From the NCBI RefSeq assembly GCF_000317895.1, contig NC_019567.1, positions 1,488,001 to 1,552,000 on the forward strand: a DNA stretch of 64,000 bases, written 5' to 3'. The position numbers and the translations under genes are program-made. This DNA comes from Bdellovibrio bacteriovorus str. Tiberius (GTDB taxonomy: Bacteria; Bdellovibrionota; Bdellovibrionia; Bdellovibrionales; Bdellovibrionaceae). Shown piece by piece: positions 23,118 to 41,392 of the stretch (positions are counted from its first letter, which is position 1; each line of letters begins with the position of its first letter). Below the pieces are notes generated by a model that did not search any database, had not been told where the DNA came from, and saw nothing but the letters and a program-made list of their open reading frames with translations.

Positions 23118-24818
23118 ATGGTTAAGTCCCAGGAATCTCAAAAATCTCAAAGAAAAGAAAGTGGCGACGGCAAGGGCAGGAAGCCCAATATCCTCGTCAT
23201 CATGGGTGATGATATCGGCATCACCAACTTAAGCTGCTACAGCCGCGGAATGATGGGTTATCACACCCCGAATATCGATCGAATTGCTCAAGAGGGAATG
23301 ATGTTCACGGATTCCTACGGCGAACAAAGCTGCACAGCGGGACGCGCCGCCTTTATGACGGGACAAAGTGTGTTCCGCACGGGGCTGTCCAAGGTGGGAC
23401 TGCCCGGGGCGCAAGTGGGAATTAAAAGTGAGGACCCAACCATTGCGGCTTTGCTGAAACCCCTGGGGTATGCGACCGGCCAGTTTGGTAAAAACCATTT
23501 TGGTGATCGCAATGAATATCTTCCTACTGTTCATGGCTTTGATGAGTTTTACGGTAATCTTTATCACCTGAATGCGGAAGAGGATCCGGAAGATCCTGAT
23601 TATCCAAAAGGACATCTGTTCAGAGATCGCTTTCTGCCTCGCGGAGTTTTGCGTTGTAAGGCCACGGATAAAGACGATCCAACTGTGCATGAGCGCTGGG
23701 GCCGTGTCGGCAAACAAACTATCGAAGATACCGGTCCGCTGACCAGAAAACGCATGGAAACCTGTGACGATGATTTTGTTGATGCCGCTAAGGACTTTAT
23801 TTCCCGACAAAATTCGGACGGAAATCCTTGGTTCGTCTGGTTGAACACCACTCACATGCATTTGCGCACGCACACCAAACCTGAAAGTATCGGTCAGGCC
23901 GGGCCGGGGCAGTCGCCATATCATGACACCATGATTGATCATGACAAAAACGTCGGACAAATGCTGGATCATCTTGATGCTTTGGGTATCAGCGAAGACA
24001 CAATCGTGCTGTATACGACGGATAACGGACCTCATATGAATACCTGGCCGGATGGGGCTATGACTCCTTTCCGCAGCGAGAAAAATACGAACTGGGAAGG
24101 GGCTTTCCGGGTTCCATTGTTACTTCGCTGGCCGGGACAGGTGAAGGAAGGGTCCATTTCAAATGAAATTGTTCAGCATCACGACTGGTTGCCGACATTC
24201 CTGGCTGCCGCCGGTGAACCCGATGTCGTCAATAAACTGTTGGGCGGTCATCAAGCCGGAGAAAACAAGTACCGCGTTCATATCGATGGTTATAATCTGG
24301 TTCCGTATTTGACCGGTGAAGAAAAAGAAAGCCCGCGCAAAGGATTTATTTATTTCAGTGATGACGGGGATCTTGTAGCCCTTCGTTTCCAGAATTGGAA
24401 GATGGTATTCATGGAGCAGCGAAAAGCCGGAACATTGGGTGTGTGGGCGGAACCATTCACCCCACTGCGTGTGCCGAAGCTCTTCAATTTGCGCACGGAT
24501 CCATTTGAACGTGCTGATGTGACTTCCAATACCTATTGGGATTGGTACATGAGCAAAGCCTATATCATTATGGCAGCTCAGGCCATTGTCGCAAAATTCC
24601 TGGAAACTTTTGCCGAGTATCCGCCTCGTCAAAAGGCGGCCAGCTTCACCATTGATCAGATCATGGAAAAAATGAGCAACGCCGCTGGCTATGCCCATCA
24701 GGATTCCACAGGAAAAAACATCAAAGAATCCCCCGAGTCCCATCGCGAAGCGGGGCAGGGCATGCCGCCTGTAAAAGGCAGACAGGATGAAGGTGAGCAA
24801 CGCAGAAGTACTCATTAG
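23118..24818 (+). CDS. Sulfatase (arylsulfatase family, Cys-type)
   Basis: 566 residues. The N-terminal KPNILVIMGDDIG gives the metal-binding Asp pair. SCTAGRAAFMTG contains the C-x-A-x-R signature, with Cys72 the residue that a formylglycine-generating enzyme converts to the catalytic aldehyde. Later, TTDNGPHMNTWP gives the second metal-site DN pair. Family members hydrolyse sulfate esters using Ca2+. No signal peptide is visible, so it may be cytoplasmic or exported another way; this is unusual beside an exported HAD enzyme. RBS AAGGAG at good spacing. The stop lies inside the start of the activating-enzyme gene (32-bp overlap). Confidence 0.92.
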   Translation: MVKSQESQKSQRKESGDGKGRKPNILVIMGDDIGITNLSCYSRGMMGYHTPNIDRIAQEGMMFTDSYGEQSCTAGRAAFMTGQSVFRTGLSKVGLPGAQVGIKSEDPTIAALLKPLGYATGQFGKNHFGDRNEYLPTVHGFDEFYGNLYHLNAEEDPEDPDYPKGHLFRDRFLPRGVLRCKATDKDDPTVHERWGRVGKQTIEDTGPLTRKRMETCDDDFVDAAKDFISRQNSDGNPWFVWLNTTHMHLRTHTKPESIGQAGPGQSPYHDTMIDHDKNVGQMLDHLDALGISEDTIVLYTTDNGPHMNTWPDGAMTPFRSEKNTNWEGAFRVPLLLRWPGQVKEGSISNEIVQHHDWLPTFLAAAGEPDVVNKLLGGHQAGENKYRVHIDGYNLVPYLTGEEKESPRKGFIYFSDDGDLVALRFQNWKMVFMEQRKAGTLGVWAEPFTPLRVPKLFNLRTDPFERADVTSNTYWDWYMSKAYIIMAAQAIVAKFLETFAEYPPRQKAASFTIDQIMEKMSNAAGYAHQDSTGKNIKESPESHREAGQGMPPVKGRQDEGEQRRSTH

Positions 24819-25776
24819 ACCTGAGCAGGAAAAGGGGCCCTCGGCCCCTTTTCCTGATATGATCTGGATCCCCGGTGGTATGTTCACCATGGGCTCCGAT
24901 AATCATTATGCAGAAGAAGCACCGGCCCACCGGGTGAAAGTCGATGGTTTCTGGATGGACCGCCATCCCGTGACCAACCGGGATTTTTTGGCCTTTGTTC
25001 AGGCCACGGGCTATCGTACATTTTGTGAAAAAGAACCCGATCTAAACCTGTATCCGGGCGCTTCTGAATCCATGAAAGATCCCGCGTCGGTGGTGTTTGT
25101 TAAGCCAGCTTCACCTGTGGATCTGCGAAATCCGTATTTATGGTGGCAATTTATTCCCGGGGCGAACTGGCGCTCTCCGCAAGGCCCTGGCAGTTCTATT
25201 GAAAGCCGGATGGATCATCCGGTGGTGCACGTATCGTGGCAGGATGTTCAAGCCTATGCCAAGTGGATCGGCAAAAAGCTGCCGACCGAAGCTGAATGGG
25301 AATTTGCAGCGCGCGGGGGGCATGAGGGGCGCGAGTTTGCGTGGGGTGAAGAGCTTGAACCCGAAGGCCGTCATCAGGCCAACATCTGGCAAGGGGAATT
25401 TCCCTGGCAGAATCACAGCGGCGATGGTTTCGAGGGGACTTCCCCGGTCACAGCCTTTCCGCCGAATGACTACGGATTGTTTGATATGATCGGCAATGTC
25501 TGGGAATGGACGGTGGATTGGTACAGCCCGCGGCATCCCGATGAAAAACTGAAAGCCTGCTGCATTCCGAAAAATCCCCGCGGAGGGGCCGAGGCAGACA
25601 GCTTTGATCCTCGTCAGGCTTTAAAGATCCCCCGTAAGGTGATGAAAGGGGGATCGCACCTGTGTGCCCCCAATTATTGCAAACGCTATCGGCCCTCGGC
25701 CCGCATGGCTCAACCCGTGGACACTTCGACATCTCATCTGGGCTTTCGCTGTGTTGTTCGAGGAGAACGAAGTTAA
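24787..25776 (+). CDS. Formylglycine-generating enzyme (SUMF1/FGE type)
   Basis: 329 residues with the FGE-sulfatase fold: MIWIPGGMFTMGSD, HRVKVDGFWMDRHPVTNRDFLAF, LPTEAEWEFAARGG, GNVWEWTVDWY and a C-terminal GFRCVVRG. The copper-binding active-site cysteine pair is present: Cys293 and Cys298 in SHLCAPNYCKRYR, as in human FGE. It oxidises the sulfatase Cys to formylglycine using O2. Overlap with the preceding sulfatase argues that this pair works together. Proteins of this fold lacking the Cys pair are not oxidases; this one keeps it. The start ATG is inside the sulfatase frame, with AGGATGA just upstream. Confidence 0.93.
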   Translation: MKVSNAEVLIRPEQEKGPSAPFPDMIWIPGGMFTMGSDNHYAEEAPAHRVKVDGFWMDRHPVTNRDFLAFVQATGYRTFCEKEPDLNLYPGASESMKDPASVVFVKPASPVDLRNPYLWWQFIPGANWRSPQGPGSSIESRMDHPVVHVSWQDVQAYAKWIGKKLPTEAEWEFAARGGHEGREFAWGEELEPEGRHQANIWQGEFPWQNHSGDGFEGTSPVTAFPPNDYGLFDMIGNVWEWTVDWYSPRHPDEKLKACCIPKNPRGGAEADSFDPRQALKIPRKVMKGGSHLCAPNYCKRYRPSARMAQPVDTSTSHLGFRCVVRGERS

Positions 25777-25787
25777 AGGAGACTTTC

Positions 25788-26141
25788 ATGGAAGAAGCCG
25801 TCCGGCAATGGACTGAAGTCATTTCAATTTGTCTTGAGTTCTTTGCGGCTTTGTTGATTGCCGTGGGCGCATTGGAAGGTCTTTTCAGGCTGGCCAAGTT
25901 TTCCATTTTTGGTCAAAGAGGTCTGGGCATCAGAAAGGACATCTGGCTGGGGTTTGCGCGGTGGATTGTTCTGGGGCTGGAATTCATGCTGGCGGCAGAC
26001 ATCGTATCAACCATTGTTTCGCCGTCGTGGGATGCGATCGGCATGCTCGCCGCTATTGCGTTGATCCGGACTTTCTTAAGTTATTTCCTGGAAAGAGATC
26101 TGGAGGCCGCCTCCAGAAAGGAGTTGGGCGATGGAGCCTGA
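25788..26141 (+). CDS. DUF1622 membrane protein
   Basis: 117 residues with three predicted membrane helices (VISICLEFFAALLIAVGALEG, IVLGLEFMLAADIVSTIV, IGMLAAIALIRTFLSYFLERDLE). The final helix with RTFLSYFLERDLE is characteristic of the DUF1622 family. Function unknown. The ATG at 25788 follows AAAGGAG; an earlier in-frame start at 25662 would lie inside the FGE gene. Twelve bases after FGE and overlapping the DUF202 gene, so probably the same operon. Confidence 0.82.
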   Translation: MEEAVRQWTEVISICLEFFAALLIAVGALEGLFRLAKFSIFGQRGLGIRKDIWLGFARWIVLGLEFMLAADIVSTIVSPSWDAIGMLAAIALIRTFLSYFLERDLEAASRKELGDGA

Positions 26142-26661
26142 ACGTTCATCAAATGAGATGTCGCAGGAAAGAACAAATCTTTCAGAACATAGAACCGATC
26201 TGTCGGAACATCGCACCGGACTTTCTGAGCATCGAACAGAATTATCCGAACACAGAACTGACCTGTCCGAGCATAGAACCGAGTTGTCGGAAGGTCGCAG
26301 TGATCTGTCGGCAGTACGCAGTCATTTGGCGAATGAGCGCACACATTTAGCTTACATGCGCACTGGAATTTCTTTGGTCAGCTTGGGAATCACCATGAAC
26401 CGATTCAGCTGGTTTTTGATGGAAAACAAAGCGATCTCCCGGCACGGGGGGCGTCCTTTTTTGGATGACGCCAAAAATACGGGTCTGGGAATGGTGATTC
26501 TGGGCAGCGCCATGCTGATATGGTCGCTGTATCGTTATTCGCACACGGCCAAGCAAATCGATGCGCATCACTATTTGCCGGCGCATCGGTCGGTGCGCGC
26601 CTTCACGCTGGCTTTGATACTAATTGGTATTGTGTCTGTATTATGGATGATTGTGGGGTAA
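26131..26661 (+). CDS. DUF202 membrane protein with N-terminal heptad expansion
   Basis: 176 residues. Residues ~11-79 are tandem 7-residue units of the form L-S-E-H-R-T-x (six or seven near-perfect copies, encoded by ~21-bp repeats at about 26161-26367). They run in register into the family signature LANERTHLAYMRTGISL, so the repeats look like duplications of the DUF202 motif itself. Three membrane helices follow (~80-95, 120-140, 155-175). DUF202 proteins are of unknown function; VTC-complex membrane domains belong to this group. Start ATG has AAGGAG seven bases before. Overlaps the DUF1622 stop by 11 bases. Confidence 0.85.
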   Translation: MEPERSSNEMSQERTNLSEHRTDLSEHRTGLSEHRTELSEHRTDLSEHRTELSEGRSDLSAVRSHLANERTHLAYMRTGISLVSLGITMNRFSWFLMENKAISRHGGRPFLDDAKNTGLGMVILGSAMLIWSLYRYSHTAKQIDAHHYLPAHRSVRAFTLALILIGIVSVLWMIVG

Positions 26662-27311: not shown

Positions 27312-28142
27312 TTAAAAATTCGATGACTTGATCGTCTGAATGATTCTTTTGCTGACGGTGTTGTTGTGCTTTTCGGGACGGTACACCAGACAGATTTCGT
27401 CTTTGAACACCGGGGCTTCTTTTAATTTTTCAAGCTGCTTGTATTGGGCGGCGACTCTTGTCGGCAAAAGACCGTACCCAAACCCCAAAGACGTCAGTTT
27501 CGCCACGACCTCAAGGTTGCCTGAACTTAGCACGCCATTGAAGCTGGTCCTTTTGCTGATCTTTTTCAGAATGTATTGGGACTGGGCCAGGTTCTGATCA
27601 TAAATCAATTTGTCCTGGGCGTTTTTGGTGTGGAAGATCGTGACCTCATCTGTGCACAGCTTGTGAATAACAAGATCCGGGTGCTTGATGGGATTCACGA
27701 CAATGCCGAAATCCGCTTCCCAACTGATGACCTTTTCAGTCATTTCCCTGGAAAGACCATGAATAAAATTGAAATCAAGGCCCGCAAAATCGGACTGCAA
27801 AGTCGGCATGAACGCCGCTAGGGTATAAAGCGCGACCGAGGGGTGAACCGCAATGGTATAACTTCCCTGAATAAGACCCGAATCAGGATTTGCCAGATTC
27901 TGGGCCTGCTCCCATTCATAAAGCAAACGGCGAGAGCGCTGTTTGAATTCTTCCCCCAGCTTGGTCAGCTGAATGCCGTTTTTAAGCCGGATCAGCAGAT
28001 TTCCGCCCAGTTCAGTTTCCAGTCGTTTGATGGAATAGCTCAGGGCCGGCTGGGAAATGCCAATGATTTCCGAAGCCCGGGTGACATTCAGGGTTTCGCA
28101 GACAGTTACAAAGTATTTTATGTCATCCATCATTAAAGACAT
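27312..28142 (-). CDS. LysR-family transcriptional regulator
   Basis: 276 residues. The N-terminal helix-turn-helix is typical: DIKYFVTVCETLNVTRASEIIGISQPALSYS..KRLETELGG. A LysR substrate-binding domain follows (~90-270). It is transcribed away from the isonitrile genes across an 88-bp gap holding two dyads, so it most likely controls them in response to an unknown ligand. Related clusters in Pseudomonas are also under LysR control (ptxR, pvcR). No clear Shine-Dalgarno site precedes the ATG at 28142; ATG at 28133 is also possible. Confidence 0.93.
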   Translation of the reverse strand: MSLMMDDIKYFVTVCETLNVTRASEIIGISQPALSYSIKRLETELGGNLLIRLKNGIQLTKLGEEFKQRSRRLLYEWEQAQNLANPDSGLIQGSYTIAVHPSVALYTLAAFMPTLQSDFAGLDFNFIHGLSREMTEKVISWEADFGIVVNPIKHPDLVIHKLCTDEVTIFHTKNAQDKLIYDQNLAQSQYILKKISKRTSFNGVLSSGNLEVVAKLTSLGFGYGLLPTRVAAQYKQLEKLKEAPVFKDEICLVYRPEKHNNTVSKRIIQTIKSSNF

Positions 28143-28145
28143 AAA

Positions 28146-28196
28146 TAGTTTTTATCACAATGAACTAAAAGGGTCATTTTATTTATTTCTAGAAAT
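28146..28196. promoter_or_regulatory. Divergent promoter region with two dyads (candidate LysR sites)
   Basis: TAGTT (28146-28150) and AACTA (28163-28167) form an inverted repeat with 12-bp spacing that includes a T-N11-A LysR-box form. ATTTCTAGAAAT (28185-28196) is a perfect 12-bp palindrome closer to the synthase gene. Binding is inferred from position and symmetry. Confidence 0.45.
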
Positions 28197-28230
28197 TCGC
28201 TAGTTTCCGCTTTAGGAGGAAACCGAGTTT

Positions 28231-29277
28231 ATGAAGCCTGCAGCCCTTGAACTAATTTCAATACAGAGTCATTCCCTTGAAAGTTTTGATCTAAAAAGGT
28301 CCCCCGCTGCCGACACAGCCATGGAAACGGCCCGAAGAATGTTGGCCGAGGTCATGAACTATCGCCGTGTCCCGGGGGCTCATGACCGGTGCGACAATTC
28401 CGAATGCCAGGCTTGCGCCTCTGTTCACCTGCCCAAGATCATTTCGGCCGTTCGCAACAATATGCCTGTCACCTTTGTACTTCCGGCTTTTCCCGGTAAA
28501 TCTCCGAATCCGGAAAAGGTTCTGGGGCCTTTGCCAGACTATGCAGAACAGCTGGCGCTGGAATTCCTGGGCCGCCTGGGTCAGAGGATTAAAAAGTACT
28601 ACTCTCCGGGGATTAAAATCATCCTGTGCTCTGATGGAAGGGTTTTCAGCGACCTGGTGGGTATGAAAGAAAGCAACGTGACGGCTTACCAGTCCGAACT
28701 TTCGGTGCTTAAGGACAAACTATCCCTTGCAGATATTGAGACCTTCAATCTGGATGATTTTTATGGCGAGCTTAGCTTCAATCAAATGCGTGATGAGCTG
28801 ATGAAGCGCTATGGCAGTTCCTTGGATTTCTTAAAGCACAAAGTTCGCAATGGTGCCGGGGATCAGGCGACCGCCGACGAACAAGATGCCCATCGTATGT
28901 ATTGCGGAATCACGCGCTTTCTGTTCGAGGATTCTTTGCACTCGGGGCAGACCAAAAGCCGTTCTGCGATTCAGAAAGAATCCCGTTTGAAGTCCTATGA
29001 AGTCATTCGCCGAAGCAACGCCTGGAGCGATCTGATCGCCGAGCGCTTTCCTGAAGCCGTCAGGCTGTCCATTCACCCACAAACCTGCGGGGCTGCGAAG
29101 CTGGGTATCCGCCTGGTTGGAAATGAAAGTTGGATGACACCATGGCATGGAGTGGCTGTTGAAACCAAGAACGGCCCCGTTCTGCTGAAACGTTCTGAAG
29201 CCGAAGCACTGGGGGCCGAGTTGATTTATTCATCGGACGGACGCCCCAGCCACTACAAAATGGGAGGTGTCCTGTGA
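28231..29277 (+). CDS. isnA: Isocyanide (isonitrile) synthase, PvcA/DIT1 family
   Basis: 348 residues, the usual length for PvcA/IsnA. The enzyme converts the amino group of an aromatic amino acid (tyrosine or tryptophan) to an isonitrile using ribulose 5-phosphate. Recognisable parts: HLPKIISAVRNNMPVTFVLPAFPGKSPNP, IILCSDGRVFSDLVG, RLSIHPQ, KLGIRLVG and TPWHGVAVE, all characteristic of the family. RBS AGGAGG 12 bases before the ATG. Its stop overlaps the GTG start of the dioxygenase gene by four bases. Whether Tyr or Trp is used cannot be told from sequence alone. Confidence 0.9.
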   Translation: MKPAALELISIQSHSLESFDLKRSPAADTAMETARRMLAEVMNYRRVPGAHDRCDNSECQACASVHLPKIISAVRNNMPVTFVLPAFPGKSPNPEKVLGPLPDYAEQLALEFLGRLGQRIKKYYSPGIKIILCSDGRVFSDLVGMKESNVTAYQSELSVLKDKLSLADIETFNLDDFYGELSFNQMRDELMKRYGSSLDFLKHKVRNGAGDQATADEQDAHRMYCGITRFLFEDSLHSGQTKSRSAIQKESRLKSYEVIRRSNAWSDLIAERFPEAVRLSIHPQTCGAAKLGIRLVGNESWMTPWHGVAVETKNGPVLLKRSEAEALGAELIYSSDGRPSHYKMGGVL

Positions 29278-30107
29278 ATTTTAAAGCAACTTATATGAAG
29301 CCCTTTGGCGTTATTGTTGAACCCTTGGTTCAAGGCACCAGTGTCAGGGATCTGGATTTGAAGTCCTTGCACGACTTTTTCCTGCAGGAACAAATCGTGG
29401 TGCTAAGAGGATTTTCCACCTTCAGGGATTCTGCGGATTTTGCTAAGTATTGTGAGCTTTGGGGCGAAATCAGCATCTGGCCTTTTGGAAAAGTGCTGGA
29501 GCTGATCGAGCAGGACAATCCTCAGGATCATATATTTGATCACCGCTATGTTCCGATGCATTGGGACGGAATGTATCGTCCTCAGGTTCCGGAATATCAG
29601 ATCTTTCATTGTGTAAAAGCACCACTGCCGGGGCATGGCGGGCGAACCACTTTTTCAAATACCGTGCTGGCCCTTAAAAATGCGACGCCCCAGCTGAAAG
29701 ATCTTTGGAGCAAAGTCACAGGGATCTATCAAAGAAAGATGGAGTTTTACAACAGTAAGACCGTGTCGCCGATTATCACGAAGCACCCGCAACGAGATTT
29801 TTCTGTAATTCGTTACAATGAGCCTCCTTGTGAAGGTAAAGAATTTGTTAATCCTCCGGATCTGGAGTTCGCTGGTGTCGCGGGCGGAAAAATGAAGGAA
29901 TTCCATCAGGGGTTGCAAGACGCCCTTTACTCGCCCGAAAATTTCTATGCGCACGAATGGCAGGACGGGGATGTGGTGATTACGGATAATTTCTCTTTGC
30001 TGCATGGACGGGAAGGTTTTACTTCAAAATCGCCACGTCATCTGCAGCGTGTGCAGGTGCAAAGCAGTCCGCCCTTTAACAACCCCGGTCTGGAGTCTTA
30101 CAAATGA
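29274..30107 (+). CDS. isnB: Fe(II)/2-oxoglutarate dioxygenase, TauD/PvcB-like
   Basis: 277 residues. The iron ligands are His96 and Asp98 in MHWDGM and His244 in LLHGREGF; an Arg in the following PRHLQRVQ binds 2-oxoglutarate. In PvcB/IsnB, the enzyme oxidatively decarboxylates the isonitrile amino acid to a vinyl isonitrile, or desaturates it. Start GTG at 29274 overlaps the synthase stop; its own stop overlaps the next ATG (ATGA), so all three genes appear translationally coupled. Confidence rests on both sequence and context. Confidence 0.9.
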   Translation: MNFKATYMKPFGVIVEPLVQGTSVRDLDLKSLHDFFLQEQIVVLRGFSTFRDSADFAKYCELWGEISIWPFGKVLELIEQDNPQDHIFDHRYVPMHWDGMYRPQVPEYQIFHCVKAPLPGHGGRTTFSNTVLALKNATPQLKDLWSKVTGIYQRKMEFYNSKTVSPIITKHPQRDFSVIRYNEPPCEGKEFVNPPDLEFAGVAGGKMKEFHQGLQDALYSPENFYAHEWQDGDVVITDNFSLLHGREGFTSKSPRHLQRVQVQSSPPFNNPGLESYK

Positions 30108-31519
30108 CGCCTCAAGTGGTGGATCTTGTTGTTGTCGGGGCGGGGCCCGTGGGGCTGATGTGTGCCTATCTTGCGAATCTTTGCGGGATCAGCACCGTGA
30201 TCGTCGATAAATCCGCGGCACCATTGCAGGTAGGGCGCGCCGATGCCCTGAACGCCCGAACTTTGCAGCTGCTGGAAGTCGGTAAGTTATTTGACGAAGT
30301 TTACCCTTTGGGAAAGTCCTGCAACACCAGTTCCGTGTGGGCGGATGGAAAGTTTATTTCGCGCCAGTCTTCGTGGTGGGACGAGCTGGAAGGGTGCCTG
30401 CACAAACATTTTCTGATGCTGGGGCAGTCTTATGTGGAACAGCTATTGGACGGGCGGCTTGCCGAACAAGGCGCTGCGGTTCGTCGTTCGACCGCGATTG
30501 CGAATATTGAGATTATTGAAAACGGGTGTCTGACCACTTTGGCGGACGGTCAGGTGATTCAGTCCCGTTATGTTGTTGGAGCTGATGGTTCGCGGTCTTT
30601 TGTCCGTGAAAAAATGCAGGTGCCGTTTGAAATCGTGAGGCCGCAGATTATTTGGGCGGTTATTGATGGGGTCGTTGAAACGGACTTTCCAAAAGTGCCT
30701 GAAATCATCGTCTTTCAGGCGGAAACCTCGGACGTGGCGTGGATTCCCCGGGAAGGAAATATTGATCGTTTCTATGTTCGTATGGACGTCAGTGATTTCA
30801 CCCTGGAAGAAGCTGTTGCGAAAATCAATCGCGCGATCAAACCCCATGTTTTGGGGTTTAAAGAGGTCGTGTGGTTTTCCCAGTTTTCGGTGAAAGAGTC
30901 TGTGGCGGAAAAGTTCTCAGTGCAGGATCGGGTGTTTTTGGCGGGTGATGCCAGCCACATTCATTCGGTCAACGGCGGACAGGGACTGAACACGGGCCTG
31001 GCGGATGCTTTCAATCTTATTTGGAAAATGCATATGACTTTGCATCACGGGGCTTCGGATGGCCTTTTGCAAAGTTATGAATCTGAACGGAAACCCGTAG
31101 CTTTAAGTGTCATTGAGTCTTCAGGAGAACTTGTTCGTTCAACCAAATATTCTGCGAAGGGGACGCATGCCGAAGATTACGTTCGGATTGTGCAGAAGCG
31201 CGCGGGGAATATTACCGGGATGGGGATTCGTTATGCGGGCGAAGGTTTGGTGGGATCGCGACTGTTTGATTTTGAGGTGAACAGCGGGGCGGGGACAGTT
31301 CGGCTTTATTCTTTGCTGGATTATACGAAGTTTACTTTGTTTGTCTTTGGGGATGCGCAGCTGGAATTTGAGCTGCCGAGGTATGTTCAGCTTGTTGTCG
31401 TTGATGCTTCTGATTCTGTGTATGCGGGGCAGGCGGTATTGGTGAGACCGGATTCTTATATTGAATTCGTGGTCCCACTGGCGCGGGTTGGGGAACTTGT
31501 GGAATTGGTTTTTGGTTAA
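30104..31519 (+). CDS. FAD-dependent aromatic monooxygenase (PheA/TfdB type)
   Basis: 471 residues. VVVGAGPVGLM (residues ~10-19) is the FAD Rossmann motif, YVVGADGSRSFVRE the DG motif, and DRVFLAGDASHIHSVNGGQGLNTGLADA the GD motif, all diagnostic of group A flavoprotein hydroxylases such as phenol hydroxylase and PgaE/RdmE. It probably hydroxylates the aromatic ring of the isonitrile product. This differs from Pseudomonas PvcC, which belongs to the FADH2-dependent 4-hydroxyphenylacetate hydroxylase group. Overlaps the dioxygenase stop. The stop overlaps that of the convergent ASCH gene by four bases. Confidence 0.9.
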   Translation: MTPQVVDLVVVGAGPVGLMCAYLANLCGISTVIVDKSAAPLQVGRADALNARTLQLLEVGKLFDEVYPLGKSCNTSSVWADGKFISRQSSWWDELEGCLHKHFLMLGQSYVEQLLDGRLAEQGAAVRRSTAIANIEIIENGCLTTLADGQVIQSRYVVGADGSRSFVREKMQVPFEIVRPQIIWAVIDGVVETDFPKVPEIIVFQAETSDVAWIPREGNIDRFYVRMDVSDFTLEEAVAKINRAIKPHVLGFKEVVWFSQFSVKESVAEKFSVQDRVFLAGDASHIHSVNGGQGLNTGLADAFNLIWKMHMTLHHGASDGLLQSYESERKPVALSVIESSGELVRSTKYSAKGTHAEDYVRIVQKRAGNITGMGIRYAGEGLVGSRLFDFEVNSGAGTVRLYSLLDYTKFTLFVFGDAQLEFELPRYVQLVVVDASDSVYAGQAVLVRPDSYIEFVVPLARVGELVELVFG

Positions 31520-32173: not shown

Positions 32174-32187
32174 ACAAATTGGCGTTC
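32174..32187. repeat. Left attachment repeat of the integrated element
   Basis: ACAAATTGGCGTTC, a perfect 14-bp match to 47110-47123. It contains the tRNA-Glu 3' CCA and the last bases of the acceptor stem, as expected for a residue of the target left at the far end. Confidence 0.85.
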
Positions 32188-32682
32188 GCTGGTGCCGGGT
32201 CTTAGAACTGAATTGGTTAACAACGGCCAATGATTCTTACGGCGCTTTGTGTCACTATCTCGGGATTGTTTACATTAGTTGCAGCCCAATATTCTTGGGC
32301 TCTTTGAAACATACTAGCAACGGAGTCTGCTTGAGTGAAGTTCATATTCCAGTCCCCACGGTGGTAAGCAGCTTTTTTATCAAGAATCTCTACTTTATAT
32401 AGGATATCAAAGCCCCTTTGTCCTTCAATACGGAAGCGCTCGGCAATAGTTTTATCTTCGCAAAGAAAGATAGAATCCCACCTGCTGGGTTTGTTTTGAT
32501 AGTTGAGGACGCGTATTTGCTCAAATATGGCTTCTCGCGCGACTAGTCGCAGGTCGTTATGGGCTGAATATAGTTTAAGCATTCTTCCCCAGTTGCCCGG
32601 GAGGACAACGCTCCCTACATCGAGTGGATATGAACTGTTCCTGACCCCGATTTTATTTGGACACCCAACCCAGGGGGTCTTT

Positions 32683-33060
32683 ATGGAAACAACGTCTAAC
32701 AGACGGAAAGTATTTACACAGGAAAAGAAGCAATTAATCATCAAAGAGCACAATTCCCAGGGAATTTCTATCCCAGTGCTTGCCAGGAAATACGGGGTTC
32801 ATGCTATCACTCTTTATAGTTGGAAGAGGCAAATGAACCACAAAAAAGACGAATCCCCAATCAGTGCGGAATACATTCAAAAGTTGATCGAAGAAAACGA
32901 CAAACTCAAGGCTGAGAATCAGAATCTCAAAGCTAAAGTTGGCGATTTGACGATCAAGAATGACATCTTAAAAGATGGCCTGGAGATCGTTCAAAAAAAA
33001 GCGATATTAAAAGCACTTCAACCGCCAAAGAAGTCAAAGCGCTTAATCGGTATGAAGTAA
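32683..33060 (+). CDS. IS3-family transposase OrfA
   Basis: 125 residues. N-terminal helix-turn-helix (VFTQEKKQLIIKEHNSQGIS..VLARKYGVHAITLYSWKRQM), then a leucine-zipper coiled coil (LIEENDKLKAENQNLKAKVGDL). It binds the inverted repeats and acts as regulator or, fused to OrfB, as transposase. Near its end is C-A8-G at 32992-33001, a slippery site for the -1 shift into OrfB. Confidence 0.9.
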   Translation: METTSNRRKVFTQEKKQLIIKEHNSQGISIPVLARKYGVHAITLYSWKRQMNHKKDESPISAEYIQKLIEENDKLKAENQNLKAKVGDLTIKNDILKDGLEIVQKKAILKALQPPKKSKRLIGMK

Positions 33061-33887
33061 GTCAGATCGCAGAAGTTTTCGAAATCAGCCGAAGTTCAAT
33101 TTATTACGAACCAGTTTCTCAGGAGGAAATTGGCATGCCTCGCCATTACCAAAAATCAGACGATCAAATAATTTTAGAAGAAATCAAAGCCGTTATTGCA
33201 ATTAGAGCCACCTATGGCTACCGCCGGGTGACAACGATGGTGAATCGCCAAAGATCCCTTGATGGTCGCAATAAGATCAATCGCAAGCGTGTTCAAAGAA
33301 TCATGCGCATGAATGGTCTTTCATTGCCACAAACAATGCCACAGCCAAAAAGGCCACATACGGGAGTTGTTATGACTATGTTCCCGAATCTGCGTTGGTG
33401 TTCAGATGGCATGGAAATCCGCTGTTTTAACGGCGACAAAGTTTTCGTGGCGTTTGCTTTGGATTGTTGTGATCGCGAAGCATTTGCTTACGTCGCTAGG
33501 ACTGAGCCGCTATCAGCTACCGACATAGAGGAATTGATGGTTAAAGCTGTTGAAGCGAGATTTGGTGAGTCATTGAGATGTCCTCGCGAAATTCAGTGGT
33601 TGTCAGATCGAGGGTCAATTTACCGTGCGAAGTCCGTGAAGGATCTTGGCAAAGAGTTAAATCTGAATTGCTGTTACACCAGAGCCTACAGCCCAGAATC
33701 CAACGGCATGGCTGAAGCATTCGTTAAAACAATCAAAAGGGATTACGTTTATCAGGCTGACTGTGACAGCGCAGAGACGGTTCTCAAGCTTTTGCCGCAG
33801 TGGTTTGCAGATTATAACAATATTGCTCCGCACTCAGCACTTGGCATGAAGAGCCCGGTCGAGTACAAAGGGTCCGTGAACTTTTAA
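33000..33887 (+). CDS. IS3-family transposase OrfB (DDE integrase), read by -1 frameshift
   Basis: The frame is open from the A8 slippery run (about 33000), giving SRSSIYYEP before the first ATG at 33135. The rve integrase core shows the acidic residues: Asp in RWCSDGMEIRC, Asp in QWLSDRGSIYRA, Glu in PESNGMAEAFVKTIKRDYV, matching the IS2 subgroup. The HTH_21-like region ATYGYRRVTTMVN lies before it. All key residues are intact, so the element could still move. The product is most likely an OrfAB fusion from 32683. Confidence 0.88.
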   Translation, partial: SDIKSTSTAKEVKALNRYEVSQIAEVFEISRSSIYYEPVSQEEIGMPRHYQKSDDQIILEEIKAVIAIRATYGYRRVTTMVNRQRSLDGRNKINRKRVQRIMRMNGLSLPQTMPQPKRPHTGVVMTMFPNLRWCSDGMEIRCFNGDKVFVAFALDCCDREAFAYVARTEPLSATDIEELMVKAVEARFGESLRCPREIQWLSDRGSIYRAKSVKDLGKELNLNCCYTRAYSPESNGMAEAFVKTIKRDYVYQADCDSAETVLKLLPQWFADYNNIAPHSALGMKSPVEYKGSVNF

Positions 33888-34017
33888 ACCGTGTCCAAAA
33901 AATCGGGGTTCACTCCAGAACAAAAGAGATAGTACGATTGATCAGCTAACATTTATCGATTTCCTTACTTTATTTAATTGGGTTAAGTACTCATTGATTT
34001 GATAAGATCTCTTAGAT

Positions 34018-34941
34018 CTACATTTCCCATTCTTTCAAAGATCTATCGATGTAGGACTTGAGACGTTTATATCTTTGACCTAGCTTTGGATGATCTTTGA
34101 ACTTGTCTTCACAGTCTAAGACAAATTTTTTAAGGGGTTCGAGGATCTCAAGCGTATAATTGAAATCATCTGGCAAGGTGGATTGAAGTTCTCGGGCGGA
34201 TGCGCCAAAAAAATGAACCATTGGTCGCCCATCTTCGTCCACAATTATCCAGCCATTACATCGTTCCGCCATCATTTGACAGTATTTCCCTATGGCGGCA
34301 TCTCTGAACTCAATGTTTACAATGCTTCTTAAAAAGTTTAGTAGGCCTATTCCAATCAGAACCCTAGGATATTCAGCTTCCTTGCTTTCTAAAGTATAGG
34401 CTCGATTTAGTGCTGGTCCATAAAGTTCATTGCTCCCTGGATACAGAGAAATACCACCTTCAAGATCGATACCTCCACGGAATGGTACTTTTTTACTTAA
34501 ATACAACGGAGCTATCGTACCAACTGAAGCTAAAATTCCGTGAATGCTATTCAGTACTTTGGCGTAATCCAGGTCATTTTTAAGGTAGACTGGTGTCCAT
34601 ACGATTGTAGAGTCAGAGAAACTCTGAAAGTTTATCTTCGAATGACTTAGCATTTCCTTAAAATGAGTTTCAAATTTTTTCGGAATTTGAAACGGTGGCT
34701 CATGCTCTAAATAGCTGTCGAAGAAGTCTAAAAACTGCTTTCTAAAAGCCCAAACAGTGCCTACTGTATGCTTGAGGGTCTTTTGCAGTTTATCTCGACT
34801 TATCTCCGGATTCTCAGCCTCTAGGATCCCTTCAATTTCGCAGATTCGATCCTTCTGTCCAAGTAAATCTAGGAAAGCTACAACGTGATGGCCGTAATAT
34901 AAGTCTGGCTTGCTCTCTCGATCTGTCTTCGGGATGACCAT
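34018..34941 (-). CDS. Class III nucleotide-cyclase-like protein (candidate defence cyclase)
   Basis: 307 residues, soluble. Three motifs fit a divergent class III cyclase fold. HHVVAFLDLLGQKD (Asp25) corresponds to the first metal Asp; QSFSDSTIVW (Asp110) to the second; FRGGIDLEGG..YGPALNRAYTLESKEAEYPRV (~154-193) to the substrate-binding region seen in prokaryotic cyclase homologues such as Pycsar PycC. No effector domain is attached. It is 6 bp after the DUF4209 gene, so they form a two-gene operon. Enzyme activity and product (cUMP, cCMP or other) are hypotheses. An inactive or different cyclase-fold protein cannot be excluded. Confidence 0.55.
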   Translation of the reverse strand: MVIPKTDRESKPDLYYGHHVVAFLDLLGQKDRICEIEGILEAENPEISRDKLQKTLKHTVGTVWAFRKQFLDFFDSYLEHEPPFQIPKKFETHFKEMLSHSKINFQSFSDSTIVWTPVYLKNDLDYAKVLNSIHGILASVGTIAPLYLSKKVPFRGGIDLEGGISLYPGSNELYGPALNRAYTLESKEAEYPRVLIGIGLLNFLRSIVNIEFRDAAIGKYCQMMAERCNGWIIVDEDGRPMVHFFGASARELQSTLPDDFNYTLEILEPLKKFVLDCEDKFKDHPKLGQRYKRLKSYIDRSLKEWEM

Positions 34942-34947
34942 AATTTA

Positions 34948-36789
34948 TCAGACCTTTTTCTTTGCTACTATCAGAAGACACATGACTAGCAGGACCATTA
35001 GGTTGAAAGAATATTCGGGTTTGTATGATAGGCCATGGGCTACTTTATGACGCCAGTTCTGTCCGGATTTTTCAATTAGAACAAAGCGCAGATAAAATAG
35101 TTGGTCTTCAGAGAATAGATTTTTGATGGTTTTGGAGTACAACAAAGCATTGATGTCTTGTTCATTTACTACCTTGCGTCTACTTTTATCGTCTTTCATG
35201 AAGAAGGTAGCCTCTTTGTTCTGCTCACAGAGGTCTCTGAGAAGGCTTTCGAACTTCATAGCAAGAGAGTCGCAACAGAGGACAAAGTCGGGGCGATAGT
35301 TAGCATTTGCTAGAGCTTCGTTAGTTTGAGTGATGAAATATTTCAGTGCCGGGAGCACCAGGTCCAGAAAGGATTCTTCTGTTTCAACTGCTGGTGACCA
35401 GATGTTTCTTTTCTGGGAAAGCCAAGTCTCATTCGTCAGATATGATTCAAAAAGCTCAATAGTAAATAGTCCGCTTTTGATGCCGTGTAAGAAAATAAAT
35501 CTGAGCAATAGAATTTTATTACATTGAAGATGGAATTCGTATGTATGTAACTCCCATCTTCTTTTTATTTCTTCAGGGGTTGTGAAGTGTTCAATTGTGT
35601 TTCCTCGGTGATCCAAGACAGATTGAGGCATATCACTTTGGAGAGGCATTTTCTTAAGTCTAGCCTCATTTTCGGTGCGAATGGCGTTGACGTTTGGAAT
35701 GAGCTCGGGAGTGTCCCTTAAGAAATTTAGGACTTCTGCTCCGTGTTCTTTGAGTAGCTCTTCGGCGTATCGTGAAGCTGAATTTGCGGACTCTGTTAAA
35801 TCTATTGTTTGACGATATGACCCTAGACGGATTGATTTTTTTGCTTCGTCGTACTTTCTTTCTAAATCTGCGACTTTGTCCGTGTTTTTCATAGATTTAT
35901 AAAGCTCCAAGGCTTCAGAAATATATTCCGCCGATGCTGGATTACTCTTCCCAAAAGAATCTGCAATTTGTTCGTAGACATCTGCCAGTTGATGCTTCCA
36001 ATCAATGGATTTTAGTTTGGACTTGTTGCTCACTTTTCCGAGAGCAAGTAGCCAGTCCATTTTACCAAATAGATCCGTTTTATCTTTCTGATGAGTATAA
36101 ACATTTTCGATGTGTGGGAATAAGATCGAACCAAAGGTTTTCCATTTTTCTATTGAAAGATCAAGTATGAATAGTCTTACTGAACTAGACGCCGGATTGT
36201 TGTAATCGTATGAATTAAATATTCTGATTAGTAATTCCTGAGTCTCTTGTTCTTTGTAGGACACTCTAGTCGATAGGACCCAGAGGCTTTTTAGTGAGTC
36301 AATAATTCTGTGTCCTCGGCTCTTCTTTGGTTCTTCCAATTCGAAATTCAGTAGTTGGGAAGTTGAGTCTAGATACGAGTCTATTGCAGATTTCACAAAA
36401 TCAATATGCTTTAATTTCGATTCCCAGAGAAGATGTGCGTAGCGTGCTTTGAGGGTTGGATTTTTGGAAGTCCAATGGCGTTCCTTCAGATAGTCCAAAT
36501 CTGAATCTGAGTAGATGGATAGGTCTGGGAATGGACTAGCCAGCACAAACTTTGGATTTACTTTTCCATCGACAAAAACAAAACTCTGAAATTCTAGTTC
36601 AAGTTGACACTTATGAAGAGACTCTCTGTCGCCAGCATTTTTGTATTTATCCCGTAGTTTTTGAAACGCATTAGCTAGGCTATCTTCGTATTTTACTTTA
36701 TGCGCAAAACTCTCTAGTATATTGAAGCCCTCGTTAAGATCCTGAAGGTCAGGTATCTTGGGGTTTCTTTTCTCATCTTCTTTTTTCAT
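34948..36789 (-). CDS. DUF4209 protein with HEPN-like RNxxxH motif
   Basis: 613 residues, mostly helical, with no signal peptide. The C-terminus carries NWRHKVAHGL (~580), matching the RNxxxHG motif that defines DUF4209 and the R-x4-H motif of HEPN ribonucleases. The N-terminal ~480 residues are helical repeats without recognised catalytic motifs. The ATG at 36789 is chosen because GGAG lies five bases before it; the longer frame to 36999 overlaps the divergent promoter. It is first in an operon with the cyclase-like gene. HEPN proteins often act as RNA-cleaving effectors in defence, so this may be the effector; that is inference. Confidence 0.6.
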   Translation of the reverse strand: MKKEDEKRNPKIPDLQDLNEGFNILESFAHKVKYEDSLANAFQKLRDKYKNAGDRESLHKCQLELEFQSFVFVDGKVNPKFVLASPFPDLSIYSDSDLDYLKERHWTSKNPTLKARYAHLLWESKLKHIDFVKSAIDSYLDSTSQLLNFELEEPKKSRGHRIIDSLKSLWVLSTRVSYKEQETQELLIRIFNSYDYNNPASSSVRLFILDLSIEKWKTFGSILFPHIENVYTHQKDKTDLFGKMDWLLALGKVSNKSKLKSIDWKHQLADVYEQIADSFGKSNPASAEYISEALELYKSMKNTDKVADLERKYDEAKKSIRLGSYRQTIDLTESANSASRYAEELLKEHGAEVLNFLRDTPELIPNVNAIRTENEARLKKMPLQSDMPQSVLDHRGNTIEHFTTPEEIKRRWELHTYEFHLQCNKILLLRFIFLHGIKSGLFTIELFESYLTNETWLSQKRNIWSPAVETEESFLDLVLPALKYFITQTNEALANANYRPDFVLCCDSLAMKFESLLRDLCEQNKEATFFMKDDKSRRKVVNEQDINALLYSKTIKNLFSEDQLFYLRFVLIEKSGQNWRHKVAHGLSYKPEYSFNLMVLLVMCLLIVAKKKV

Positions 36790-36920
36790 CTTTTCTCCAT
36801 AAATGAAGATCACTATACAATGACTGCTGGTATTAGTTGACAATTTTGTGTTTAGCGTCATGATATATTTGTCGGATTGATTACACAAGTGGTGTGAGTA
36901 CCATTCTCGGAAGGGTAATG

Positions 36921-37565
36921 ATGGCTGCATTGGTGCTGGAGTTGCAAAAAGAAGCATTGGGGAAAGATGTTGGATTAACCGATCTGTTGCGGAAAGCATA
37001 TTTTGTTGCTCGCAAGCTTAAGGTGAAGGAACTTGAGGAGTGGGTAAGTCACGAACTCAATGGTTATCCTTCGGGTACTGATTTGCCTCCATATAGAACG
37101 ATTTCTGGAACAATGAAGGTCTGGAATCCGTATCACGGATGGCAGACCGTAATGTTTGAGAGTTCTAAAACTATGGATGCGCTATCTACTCGTCAGTGTT
37201 CTCAGGCGGCATCTGAAATTGAGCATATACTTCAAAACTCTAAAGATGGTGGGTCAGCCACAATGGACTACTCTGCGGAGGTAGCTGGTCAAATAATGAG
37301 TTCAATCGGAATAGACTTGCGGCCATCTCTTCACATTCCACTATCAGCTCTCCATAGAATCCTGGACTCAATTAAGAACTTAATCTTGAACTGGTCATTG
37401 AAGCTTGAAGAGGACGGGATTCTCGGTGATGACGTTTCCTTCTCAGATGAGGAAATTAGAAGAGCGGCGCAGGCAAATTATAATATCACTAATATTTATG
37501 GGAATGTCGTTGATTCGCAACTTCAGCAAGGAACTCAGAGTTCTAGGCAGAAATCGAGGAAGTAG
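36921..37565 (+). CDS. AbiTii-domain protein (abortive-infection type)
   Basis: 214 residues. The N-terminal region LLRKAYFVARKLKVKELEEWVSHELNGYPSG..LPPYRTISG matches the AbiTii domain (helical, with the W..ELNGY and PxYR motifs). The C-terminus ends NITNIYGNVVDSQLQQGTQSS, a Gln/Asn-rich motif found in several prokaryotic proteins with coiled or assembly domains. Start ATG at 36921 follows GGAAGG by five bases (36918 is an alternative). The next gene begins 2 bp after the stop and carries a similar motif, so the two proteins probably work together. A role in phage defence is inferred from the family name and location. Confidence 0.7.
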   Translation: MAALVLELQKEALGKDVGLTDLLRKAYFVARKLKVKELEEWVSHELNGYPSGTDLPPYRTISGTMKVWNPYHGWQTVMFESSKTMDALSTRQCSQAASEIEHILQNSKDGGSATMDYSAEVAGQIMSSIGIDLRPSLHIPLSALHRILDSIKNLILNWSLKLEEDGILGDDVSFSDEEIRRAAQANYNITNIYGNVVDSQLQQGTQSSRQKSRK

Positions 37566-37567
37566 TT

Positions 37568-38209
37568 ATGGTCGATATTAACAAGAAGCAATTGCAGAGA
37601 TTGAGGTATCTGAATCAGCTTTTTGACGAGGTTGGGGGTGACACCGGTCCAAATGTTGGGAGTTTGGTAGTTGGGCGATCTATAGGCCTTACTGATCATG
37701 AAGTTGATGTGATTATTCGCTACTTGTCAGATGAGGGTTTAATTGAAATTACGACGATGGGCGATGATGATGGGCCTACCGTCGAGCTAACTCATCAAGG
37801 ATTGGTTGAGATTGAGAGAGCTAGAACCAACCCCCAGTTAAGGACTGAACATTTTCCGCCAATGGTAAATATTATCAATATTAAAAACATGAACGGTTCG
37901 CAAATTCAACAGGGATCTGTTGGCAGTAGTCAATCGCAAGTCAACAAAAATGCAGATCTTGAGATTTCTATTCGCAACTTGATCAGTAAGATTGAATCCT
38001 CTAATGCGGCTTCAGAAGATCAAAAGGAACTAGCCCGGACTTATGCTGATGTCATTATCTCTCAGGCTAAAATTTCTGCTGAATCTAGAAATAGTGATTT
38101 GGTAAAGAAGACGTGGGAGAAGTTGAACAAACTTAGTGTGGCCCTTTCTCTGATCGATTTTACCGCCAAAGCAGCACCTGTTATTGCAAGTACCTTTGGA
38201 TTCCTATGA
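37568..38209 (+). CDS. Winged-helix protein paired with AbiTii protein
   Basis: 213 residues. Residues ~1-80 look like a winged helix: QLQRLRYLNQLFDEVGG..VGRSIGLTDHEVDVIIRYLSDEGLIEITT. Residues ~98-116 hold INIKNMNGSQIQQGSVGSSQ, close to the motif at the end of the AbiTii partner. The C-terminal ~80 residues are helical. Coupled to the AbiTii gene (2-bp gap). It could be a sensor or a regulator of its partner; no family is asserted. Confidence 0.65.
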   Translation: MVDINKKQLQRLRYLNQLFDEVGGDTGPNVGSLVVGRSIGLTDHEVDVIIRYLSDEGLIEITTMGDDDGPTVELTHQGLVEIERARTNPQLRTEHFPPMVNIINIKNMNGSQIQQGSVGSSQSQVNKNADLEISIRNLISKIESSNAASEDQKELARTYADVIISQAKISAESRNSDLVKKTWEKLNKLSVALSLIDFTAKAAPVIASTFGFL

Positions 38210-38339
38210 GTTTGAGCTGATGATTTCAGTAGAAGCCTGATTTTAGGTTGATGATAGTAGTGTAGGAGTTTCTAAAGTTCCCGGTCTAGTATGTTACTTT
38301 AGATCTTTAGTTACAACAACGGCAATCCCCCTACCCTAA

Positions 38340-39005
38340 GAAGAGAGCTGCGCACTCTAGAAATAGTGATTGCTAGCGCGATACTTCAAACTTAACCCTC
38401 TGGCCAGCGCTACTCATGGAACAACGGTCAGTAATTCCATCAGTAGAACTCGCCAGTTAATGGTGGTTGCCGTTACCCATCCACCAAAGTATTCAGTCGT
38501 TACCTGAAGGCGAGGAGTGATCCTCTATATTCAAGATCCCTTATTGGCCGGTTTGAGAGTAAATCCCCCTTCAGTCTTGATCGTCCTGATGCTACTGAAG
38601 CCCAACTGTGTCACCTATGAATGCGTCCGCATCCATCCCCAATGACTACCTGACACCTAAAAGAAATAGCGTTGAAGATTCCCAGTAGATTTAAGACTTC
38701 TTCAAGAGCCTTTGCCAGTCCTTATTAGGTAACTGAACCTTGCCTAATTTTACGTCTGATAGGCTACGCGTTGACGGAAAGCTTGCGCCTTCTCAAAAAG
38801 CAAACACCGCTGGTCGAAATAAAAAAAGGGAGAAAGCGTCGAGTCGTGAACAATTATTCAGCCTGGTTTGGGGTTCCGGAGGAAAGGAGGCTTTTCACAA
38901 GGAAACGACGCTGTAATAAGCTCGTGGCACAATAAGTACAGGTCGCCGCGGCCAACCGGCGGGGGCAGTCACTGAGCCGCTCCTAAGACGGATCTGGAGT
39001 TTACT
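38340..39005 (+). ncRNA. Large structured non-coding RNA (candidate)
   Basis: About 830 bp between genes (38210-39043) hold no ORF, yet many perfect or near-perfect helices are visible. CTACT-C-ATGGAA (38410-38421) with TTCCAT-C-AGTAG (38435-38446). CTCGCC (38449-38454) with GGCGAG (38509-38514), enclosing TGGTGG (38461-38466) with CCACCA (38481-38486). GAGGA/TCCTC (38512-38525) with a GTGA (GNRA) loop. CTTCAGT (38569-38575) with ACTGAAG (38594-38600). GTGTCA (38608-38613) with TGACAC (38651-38656). TTGAAG (38672-38677) with CTTCAA (38700-38705). AGCGTCG (38835-38841) with CGACGCT (38906-38912), enclosing GTGAA/TTCAC and AGCCT/AGGCT. CGCCG (38944-38948) with CGGCG (38957-38961). Size, structure and location on a mobile element recall GOLLD/ROOL-type RNAs, but membership is not shown. 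Confidence 0.65.
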
Positions 39006-39043
39006 CTAATAGCAGCTGAAGAGTTTTCCTTCTTGGAGGTGTT

Positions 39044-39241
39044 ATGTCCATTCCGTCCACAAAGAAGATAGATATTGAAGCAAGCAAGGCTATGAATAGC
39101 TACAGAGCGGGTAGGTCGCTCAGGGCAAAGGTAACGAATGCGTCAGCGTTGATGCTGTTAGGAGTCTTGCCATTGGTTACTGATGACACCAAGGCGGCTA
39201 GGCTTCTAAAGGTGATTTCCCAGTTAACGAAGGATAAATAG
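39044..39241 (+). CDS. Small hypothetical protein downstream of the structured RNA
   Basis: 65 residues, basic (MSIPSTKKIDIEASKAMNS, then SLRAKVTNASALMLLGVLPLVTDD), with a weakly hydrophobic middle. No family recognised. GGAGG five bases before the ATG supports translation. It begins about 40 bp after the structured RNA, so it may be cotranscribed with it. Function unknown. Confidence 0.6.
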   Translation: MSIPSTKKIDIEASKAMNSYRAGRSLRAKVTNASALMLLGVLPLVTDDTKAARLLKVISQLTKDK

Positions 39242-39312
39242 CAAGCCAGCGTTTTCCAATGCGGGGTAGCGGTGCTATATGGCCCTCTTCTTTAAGAATT
39301 TATATACCTACT

Positions 39313-39936
39313 TTATTCTTCTGACTGAGTAATGCCGTTTTGGACAGCCTGTTCTCTCTGTCTTAGGGCTTCTTCTTGAGATTCTGCTTTGTACTCCATT
39401 AGCCGTGCAGTAATGGGCTCAGACTTGAAGTCCTTTGGGTAGGCATCAACTAGTTTTGTTACGGCCTCATCCCAGGAGGCGACAGTGCCCCAGTCTGTTT
39501 TTACAGTATTCTCTACAGCGGTAATAACTTCCCCTGTGGAAGTGTCCATCAAGTTAATGGATTGCTGGCACTCGTGTCCCATTCCAGTCCAATAAGAAAT
39601 ATCTCGGCATTGAACATTGGCCACTACGACGGCACCTGCTCCATACAGTTTGCCATAAAGTGCAAACTTTTCTCGATCTTCAAAGCGATCAATAGACTTC
39701 CGGTGAAGCATATCTTGTTCTTCTTTGATTGCCTTCAATCCTTTTGATCTATCAAGAATAATGAAAGATCCATTTGCCACTAGAGCTGTTTGGAGTTTCG
39801 CATACTCTTTTGCTGAAATAGAAGCACTATCAATCATGATCCTCATGGACTTATCTGAAAATTTAGTTCGCTTCTCTTTTGAGGAACACCCAGTAGCCAA
39901 AATGAACAAAGAAAGTATCAGAATAGCATTTTTCAT
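39313..39936 (-). CDS. Lipoprotein with CsgG-like domain
   Basis: 207 residues. Lipobox LATGC (Cys17). The body has LQTALVANGSFIILDRSKGLKAIKEEQDML and YGKLYGAGAVVVANVQ, the typical second and third strands of CsgG-like and FlgT-M-like domains; CsgG is the curli secretion pore, but this short version lacks the pore-forming segments I would expect. RBS GGAGG before ATG at 39936. It follows a signal-peptide protein gene by 28 bp. Likely an envelope accessory of the element; function unknown. Confidence 0.6.
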   Translation of the reverse strand: MKNAILILSLFILATGCSSKEKRTKFSDKSMRIMIDSASISAKEYAKLQTALVANGSFIILDRSKGLKAIKEEQDMLHRKSIDRFEDREKFALYGKLYGAGAVVVANVQCRDISYWTGMGHECQQSINLMDTSTGEVITAVENTVKTDWGTVASWDEAVTKLVDAYPKDFKSEPITARLMEYKAESQEEALRQREQAVQNGITQSEE

Positions 39937-39964
39937 AGAATCCTCCTGGCCTTGATTGAAGTGC

Positions 39965-40390
39965 CTATTTACCTTTTGATTTCTTCATATCCATCAGTCC
40001 CTTGCTCTTAAGGCCTTCTTTTAGAGGATAGAGAATATTGGGAAACAGAATTTGTGGAATATCCTTTCCATCAATAACAACTCTCTGAATATCCAAGATG
40101 TCTTCTTTCTTTACCGTCTTTTTCTTAAACAGAAACTTGGAGACCGTCACGTTGTCCGTCATTTGATCCACGGATTCATTGGTTAAGATCCAACTATCGC
40201 TGCCCACGGCAGTCCATGAAGTTTTACCATTTGAAAAGAGCTTAACAAAGGACTTCAGAGATGTTTCAAAATTAATAAGTCCTCCCTGCGAATCTGAGAT
40301 GACTCTTAGGGACTGGTTTGGGCTCTCAGCATTTGCTGTAGATGCGGTTAAAAACAACGCTAATAAGATGGTTTTTAGTGTATTTGACAT
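39965..40390 (-). CDS. Exported hypothetical protein
   Basis: 141 residues. Signal peptide TLKTILLALFLTASTANA, then a small soluble domain (LRVISDSQGGLINFETSLKSFVKLF.., TVSKFLFKKKTVKKED). No family recognised. It sits upstream of the CsgG-like lipoprotein gene in the same direction and just downstream of the HTH gene, suggesting one operon of envelope-exposed cargo under the local repressor. Confidence 0.6.
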   Translation of the reverse strand: MSNTLKTILLALFLTASTANAESPNQSLRVISDSQGGLINFETSLKSFVKLFSNGKTSWTAVGSDSWILTNESVDQMTDNVTVSKFLFKKKTVKKEDILDIQRVVIDGKDIPQILFPNILYPLKEGLKSKGLMDMKKSKGK

Positions 40391-40399
40391 AATAAACTC

Positions 40400-40720: not shown

Positions 40721-40734
40721 GCTATTATCCTTCG

Positions 40735-41308: not shown

Positions 41309-41392
41309 TCATTCTCCTCTGTAACGAATTTTAATCGGCCGATTTCGTTCTCTCGAAAATGACAAAAATCCAGAAGCCGTAACCCTTCGTAA

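Follow-up and report, generated by a model that had tools for sequence, protein, structure and literature searches.

Isonitriles are tight binders of metals and inhibitors of metalloenzymes; paerucumarin is an iron chelator that affects swarming and biofilms, and rhabduscin is a phenoloxidase blocker. We describe here a cassette of three genes for an isonitrile synthase (IsnA), an iron- and 2-oxoglutarate-dependent oxygenase (IsnB) and a group A flavin adenine dinucleotide (FAD) monooxygenase (FMO), with a divergent LysR-family regulator gene. It was found in a 64,000-nucleotide stretch (the window) of the genome of Bdellovibrio bacteriovorus str. Tiberius, a single contig of 3,988,594 bases. 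The pathway is of a known chemical kind, real and intact, and has a finishing enzyme that we did not find described.

The enzymes of the described pathways supply residues with which those of the window can be compared. In IsnB proteins (PIsnB numbering), Lys or Arg at 107 together with Asn or His at 188 mark the enzymes that form vinyl isonitriles (PIsnB type), and Leu at 107 with Cys at 188 those that form isocyanoacrylates (PvcB type; Kim et al. 2022, PMC9467999). In phenol hydroxylase an Asp and a Tyr bind the phenol and an Arg stabilises the flavin (PMC3546652). The LysR protein PtxR of Pseudomonas aeruginosa activates pvc (PMC3639982).

The operon and its predicted chemistry

IsnA, IsnB and FMO are all intact and their genes overlap by four bases at each junction (GTGA at 29274-29277 for IsnA/IsnB, ATGA at 30104-30107 for IsnB/FMO), with a gap of 88 bases between the IsnA gene and the LysR gene (Table 1). 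The next gene downstream of FMO, which encodes an ASCH-domain protein, lies on the opposite strand, and the operon thus ends with FMO. In the window lineage FMO is not followed by any partner gene for a transporter, a glycosyltransferase, an ATP-grasp enzyme or a SnoaL protein, and the operon, having no glycosyltransferase gene, does not qualify as a rhabduscin-type cluster.

IsnA matches the Pfam family DIT1_PvcA (PF05141) with 251.5 bits (cut-off 26.4) over positions 3-268 of the 273 in the profile, and is 42% identical to PvcA (3e59), with a best PDB match at E 2e-71. It keeps 24 of the 24 columns that are invariant across 38 sequences, columns defined by conservation and not by published catalytic roles. 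By its score on the NCBIfam PvcA model (given below), IsnA is a homologue of PvcA that does not class as the PvcA equivalog; a search of the window genome gave no second, paralogous IsnA. IsnB belongs to Pfam TauD (161.3 bits, cut-off 27), has PvcB and PIsnB as its best PDB matches, and in alignment retains the HxD...H metal triad, the carboxylate-binding Arg and the equivalent of Trp74. Its marker residues, Arg at 107 and Asn at 188, are those of the PIsnB type and not the Leu/Cys pair of the PvcB type, and it is predicted to be a decarboxylating desaturase that gives a vinyl isonitrile.

The FMO matches Pfam FAD_binding_3 (206.8 bits, cut-off 22) and falls within NCBIfam NF005531 (PRK07190 FAD-binding protein; 887.1 bits, cut-off 530), a family without a functional name. 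The FAD and NAD(P)H motifs of group A enzymes are present (GAGPVG at residues 12-17, GADG at 159-162, GD at 281-282). Residues D47, R216 and Y224, invariant among 45-48 relatives of the FMO, align with D54, R281 and Y289 of phenol hydroxylase, and rifampin monooxygenases lack this Asp/Arg/Tyr trio in the same alignment. Residues and modelled fold lead us to predict a ring ortho-hydroxylase that yields a catechol. The family is found beside both PIsnB-type and PvcB-type IsnB proteins, so its target is probably the phenol ring that is shared by both.

A first-pass annotation of this DNA had called an isonitrile pathway, a 4-base overlap at each junction with a divergent LysR gene, and a third enzyme of group A rather than PvcC type. 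The family matches bear out the first, the coordinates and Pfam matches confirm the second, and the third is strengthened by the absence of PF03241 (HpaB, the PvcC type) from the whole window genome, in a search whose control was positive in 4 of 14 genomes. That annotation had named missing catalytic residues as grounds for abandoning the idea; the 24 IsnA columns, the IsnB triad and the FMO motifs are all there.

Whereas gene content, gene order and conserved residues are observed, the chemistry is our inference from them, as are the product and the role of that product. IsnA, going by its family, would turn the amino group of L-tyrosine into an isonitrile whose carbon comes from ribulose-5-phosphate, giving L-tyrosine isonitrile. 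IsnB, going by its residues, would then take the benzylic hydrogen and CO2 would leave, forming (E)-4-(2-isocyanovinyl)phenol. The FMO, going by its residues and fold, would use NAD(P)H and O2 to hydroxylate this phenol ortho to its hydroxyl group, yielding 4-(2-isocyanovinyl)benzene-1,2-diol; alternatively, ring hydroxylation might precede the IsnB step. As the product would carry both a catechol and an isonitrile, it would have two metal-binding groups on one molecule. We put the probability of this whole pathway, from L-tyrosine to the catechol, at roughly 0.6.

Conservation, regulation and occurrence

The LysR-IsnA-IsnB-FMO block occupies the matching chromosomal place in a relative, L029 (3,782,950-base contig), with 82-89% protein identity. 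A contig scan with the FMO gave 24 loci in Gammaproteobacteria, Alphaproteobacteria, Bacteroidota (Chryseobacterium, Aquimarina, Flavivirga), Pseudomonas and Bdellovibrionota. Wherever the upstream sequence is intact, the scanned loci have IsnA and IsnB ahead of the FMO. Together with regions added from Bdellovibrionota genomes, and with intact upstream sequence required, 41 loci were counted: IsnA and IsnB adjoin or lie near the FMO in all 41 and are directly adjacent in 40, and at L015 two DJ-1 family genes separate the IsnAB pair from the FMO, a distance of about 2.2 kb. Five loci stand outside this count, three cut by contig ends (L082, L086, L088), L064, which lacks IsnA as well as parts of both IsnB and LysR, and the remnant L087. 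The conservation of the block in L029 and the recurrence of the order IsnA-IsnB-FMO in 41 other loci mean that the arrangement is not due to chance. The flavoprotein had been called unusual, a description that no longer holds since its whole family sits with IsnA and IsnB. A FAD gene that follows IsnAB on a Hymenobacter plasmid was set aside as encoding a different flavoprotein (18.6% identity over 199 residues, E 0.05).

The LysR protein (HTH_1 64.1 bits, cut-off 26.6) is 89% identical in L029 and 68-78% identical in several Bdellovibrionota cassettes, where its gene is again divergent; a homologue accompanies a sizeable share of the cassettes, mostly in divergent orientation. Conservation with L029 is strong across the intergenic region, and the 15 bases of a candidate LysR box within it (Table 1) are identical there while neighbouring bases differ. 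This box may be bound by the LysR protein, which, by analogy with PtxR and pvc, is likely an activator and probably switches the operon.

Among 368 Bdellovibrionota genomes the FMO family occurs in 29 and IsnA in 42, both being present in 27 of the 29 genomes with an FMO. Burkholderia stagnalis also carries the cassette, and the FMO family appears in only 2 of 398 genomes of the genus Pseudomonas. Within Bdellovibrio, the complete cassette is found in 2 of 24 species genomes and a remnant in one. A predator-specific gene set was rejected on these grounds, given the many carriers from other phyla; the same distribution argues against the cassette being needed for predation and leaves the predation-related role floated in the first-pass annotation unsupported.

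The remnant (G007, L087:6395-8586) is a decayed cassette, with an FMO lacking its first third and an intact ATP-grasp gene; unrelated sequence takes the place of IsnA, IsnB and the FMO start. Separately, a second kind of isonitrile cluster exists in Bdellovibrio, IsnA-IsnB-cytochrome P450-UDP-glycosyltransferase (L030:4437-8519 and L031:4667-8773); two of the 24 species have it, and one of these is the remnant carrier.

At many loci a fourth gene follows the FMO, encoding an ATP-grasp enzyme or a SnoaL-like protein (e.g. L003:3424-4674, L013:7643-8449). All 10 loci with an ATP-grasp gene have Asn at position 188 of IsnB, and 10 of the 11 with a SnoaL gene have Cys there, which suggests that the two genes mark two product sub-classes. 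The SnoaL/Cys loci group in what is essentially a single clade of the IsnB tree, and the SnoaL-Cys link is therefore a lead, not to be counted as many independent events or as statistical proof. A search of the window genome, made without a positive control, found no ATP-grasp homologue elsewhere; the window has no such gene but the G007 remnant keeps one, which suggests loss in the B. bacteriovorus line. We tentatively propose, with less confidence than in the pathway itself, that IsnA, PIsnB-type IsnB and PRK07190 FMO define a widespread, undescribed metabolite class that crosses phyla. Its members would be small molecules that combine a vinyl isonitrile with a catechol (or ring-expanded phenol), and its ATP-grasp and SnoaL sub-classes would follow the IsnB residue, Asn or Cys, that is correlated with whether the carboxylate is lost or kept.

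Competing explanations

Several observations weigh against the proposed pathway. The closest solved relative of the FMO, VibO, chiefly performs a Baeyer-Villiger ring expansion with catechol as a side product, although it shares the active-site trio, and the residues matching the trio matter for its function (PMC10257657). The AlphaFold model of the FMO (built from 22 sequences; pLDDT 82.5, pTM 0.88) is weaker in two stretches close to the active site, around residues 89-99 and around 290-292. The NCBIfam tyrosine-specific PvcA model NF045653 scores IsnA at 271.5 bits, under its cut-off of 600, so that the choice of tyrosine over tryptophan rests mainly on the phenol-type site of the FMO. Finally, single swaps of marker residues in a PIsnB orthologue left its product unchanged (PMC9467999), and the markers are therefore correlates only.

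The FMO might carry out a Baeyer-Villiger or oxepinone-forming ring expansion, or a vinyl epoxidation, instead of forming a catechol, which we consider unlikely. The oxepinone-forming VibO is the best PDB match of the FMO by sequence and the nearest fold to its model (Z 39.5), and is again the closest in Foldseek, where MtmOIV and FlsO1 also rank high. However, hydroquinone hydroxylase (38.7) and phenol hydroxylase (38.5) lie within about one Z unit of VibO, the trio is that of phenol hydroxylase even if VibO has it too, and the 471-residue FMO is without the long insertions of VibO.

A pathway from L-tryptophan to a hydroxylated indolyl vinyl isonitrile appears quite unlikely. The PF05141/IsnB family has tryptophan-specific members, AmbI and WelI (PMC4236562), and the shortfall of IsnA against the tyrosine-specific model fits such a substrate. 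The FMO, on the other hand, carries the phenol-binding Asp/Tyr pair, and the nearest solved relatives of IsnA are tyrosine or mixed enzymes, in a comparison without a tryptophan-specific reference.

It is very unlikely that IsnB keeps the carboxylate, as PvcB does, and that the pathway leads to a paerucumarin-like coumarin. The FMO family does adjoin PvcB-type (Leu/Cys) IsnB proteins in two Pseudomonas loci (L015 and L022), and an Arg/Cys IsnB with a SnoaL-like gene stands beside it in 10 loci; the window IsnB, by contrast, has the Arg/Asn pair of vinyl-isonitrile enzymes, the genome encodes no HpaB-type hydroxylase and no SnoaL or cyclase-like gene follows the FMO. The IsnB markers and the lack of HpaB led us to reject an orthologue of the paerucumarin pathway, and paerucumarin itself is judged from these sequences an unlikely product; the earlier suggestion that the product may differ from it gains from the non-PvcC FMO and is reinforced by the markers. 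Equally improbable is a cassette that is silent or decaying in the window species and makes no product, for although its occurrence is patchy (2 of 24 Bdellovibrio species) and G007 has a truncated FMO and an ATP-grasp remnant, the three window genes are intact, tightly overlapping and keep every invariant residue, and the 82-89% identical copy of the relative has no stops.

Genomic setting and relation to known systems

The cassette has a G+C content of 0.496, compared with 0.50-0.51 for the sequence to both sides of the cassette and its neighbouring island. A recent island origin was rejected on this likeness to its flanks and on the shared chromosomal place in L029; the low-G+C island begins only at about 32174, past the cassette.

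Table 1. Positions in the window of the cassette, its regulator and neighbouring features.
Feature	Position	Strand	Remarks
IsnA	28231-29277	+	348 residues; ATG start; AGGAGG at 28214-28219
IsnB	29274-30107	+	277 residues; GTG start
FMO (group A FAD monooxygenase)	30104-31519	+	471 residues; ATG start
LysR-family regulator gene	27312-28142	-	Pfam HTH_1 and LysR_substrate; divergent from operon
Candidate LysR box, ATAAA-N5-TTTAT (T-N11-A type)	28141-28155		Read from sequence; divergent intergenic region
Genomic island	32174-47111		About 14.9 kb, adjoining the cassette; G+C 0.415 vs about 0.50
DUF202 membrane protein gene	26131-26661		N-terminus of about six 7-residue repeats (LSEHRTD/E)
21-base tandem repeat	26170-26292		Encodes the DUF202 protein repeats; sole tandem array in the window
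Sulfatase-like gene and overlapping gene	23118-25776		Second gene with sulfatase-modifying-factor domain (FGE-sulfatase, 288.8 bits)
2579-residue protein gene	14070-21809		RCC1 repeats, Calx-beta and bacterial Ig-like domains; possibly surface-exposed

A 14-base direct repeat, ACAAATTGGCGTTC, marks both limits of the island, which adjoins tRNA-Glu/tRNA-Lys and is absent from L029, in which the two flanking sequences are contiguous. Among its genes are those for two serine recombinases and an IS3-like transposase pair, together with defence-like genes of AbiT type (AbiTii 165 bits, weak AbiTi) and PDC-S39. On the other side of the cassette, the region from 21.9 to 27.3 kb has no match in the locus of the relative.

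We found neither the cassette in Bdellovibrio nor its PRK07190 partner described in the open literature; an earlier mention in Brady 2007 or in Drake and Gulick 2008 is possible. With its one-protein flavin hydroxylase, the cassette would add a third way to complete the common IsnA/IsnB intermediate, and it offers a likely function for the unnamed family PRK07190. It also provides a gene signature for finding further producers and, in Bdellovibrio, a simple test case for whether such predators make small molecules of this kind.

Of the known systems, pvcABCD of P. aeruginosa (paerucumarin) with PtxR resembles the window in having PvcA and PvcB homologues in the same order, then a ring-hydroxylating flavoenzyme, and a LysR protein alongside. 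It differs in its HpaB-type PvcC with the small partner PvcD, where the window has a single-component group A FMO, and in a PvcB that keeps the carboxylate (Leu/Cys), whereas the window IsnB has the vinyl-forming pair Arg/Asn. The isnAB clusters for rhabduscin and byelyankacin (Xenorhabdus, Photorhabdus, Enterobacter) make a tyrosine vinyl isonitrile with IsnA and a PIsnB-type IsnB, as is predicted for the window, but go on to glycosylate the phenol, for which the window operon has a flavin hydroxylase and no glycosyltransferase gene. In the Legionella isnAB-P450 cluster (PMC5126622) a monooxygenase gene likewise directly follows IsnA-IsnB; there, and in L030 and L031, a cytochrome P450 (with a glycosyltransferase in the latter two) replaces the FMO, and the IsnB of this kind of cluster is only about 34% identical to that of the window, with His/Ala as its markers. 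The FMO itself shares with phenol hydroxylase PHHY (1pn0/1foh) and VibO (7yj0) the group A fold, the FAD motifs and the active-site Asp/Arg/Tyr, whereas identity is 28-30% and those enzymes, at about 650 residues against 471, have longer insertions and a full-length C-terminal domain.

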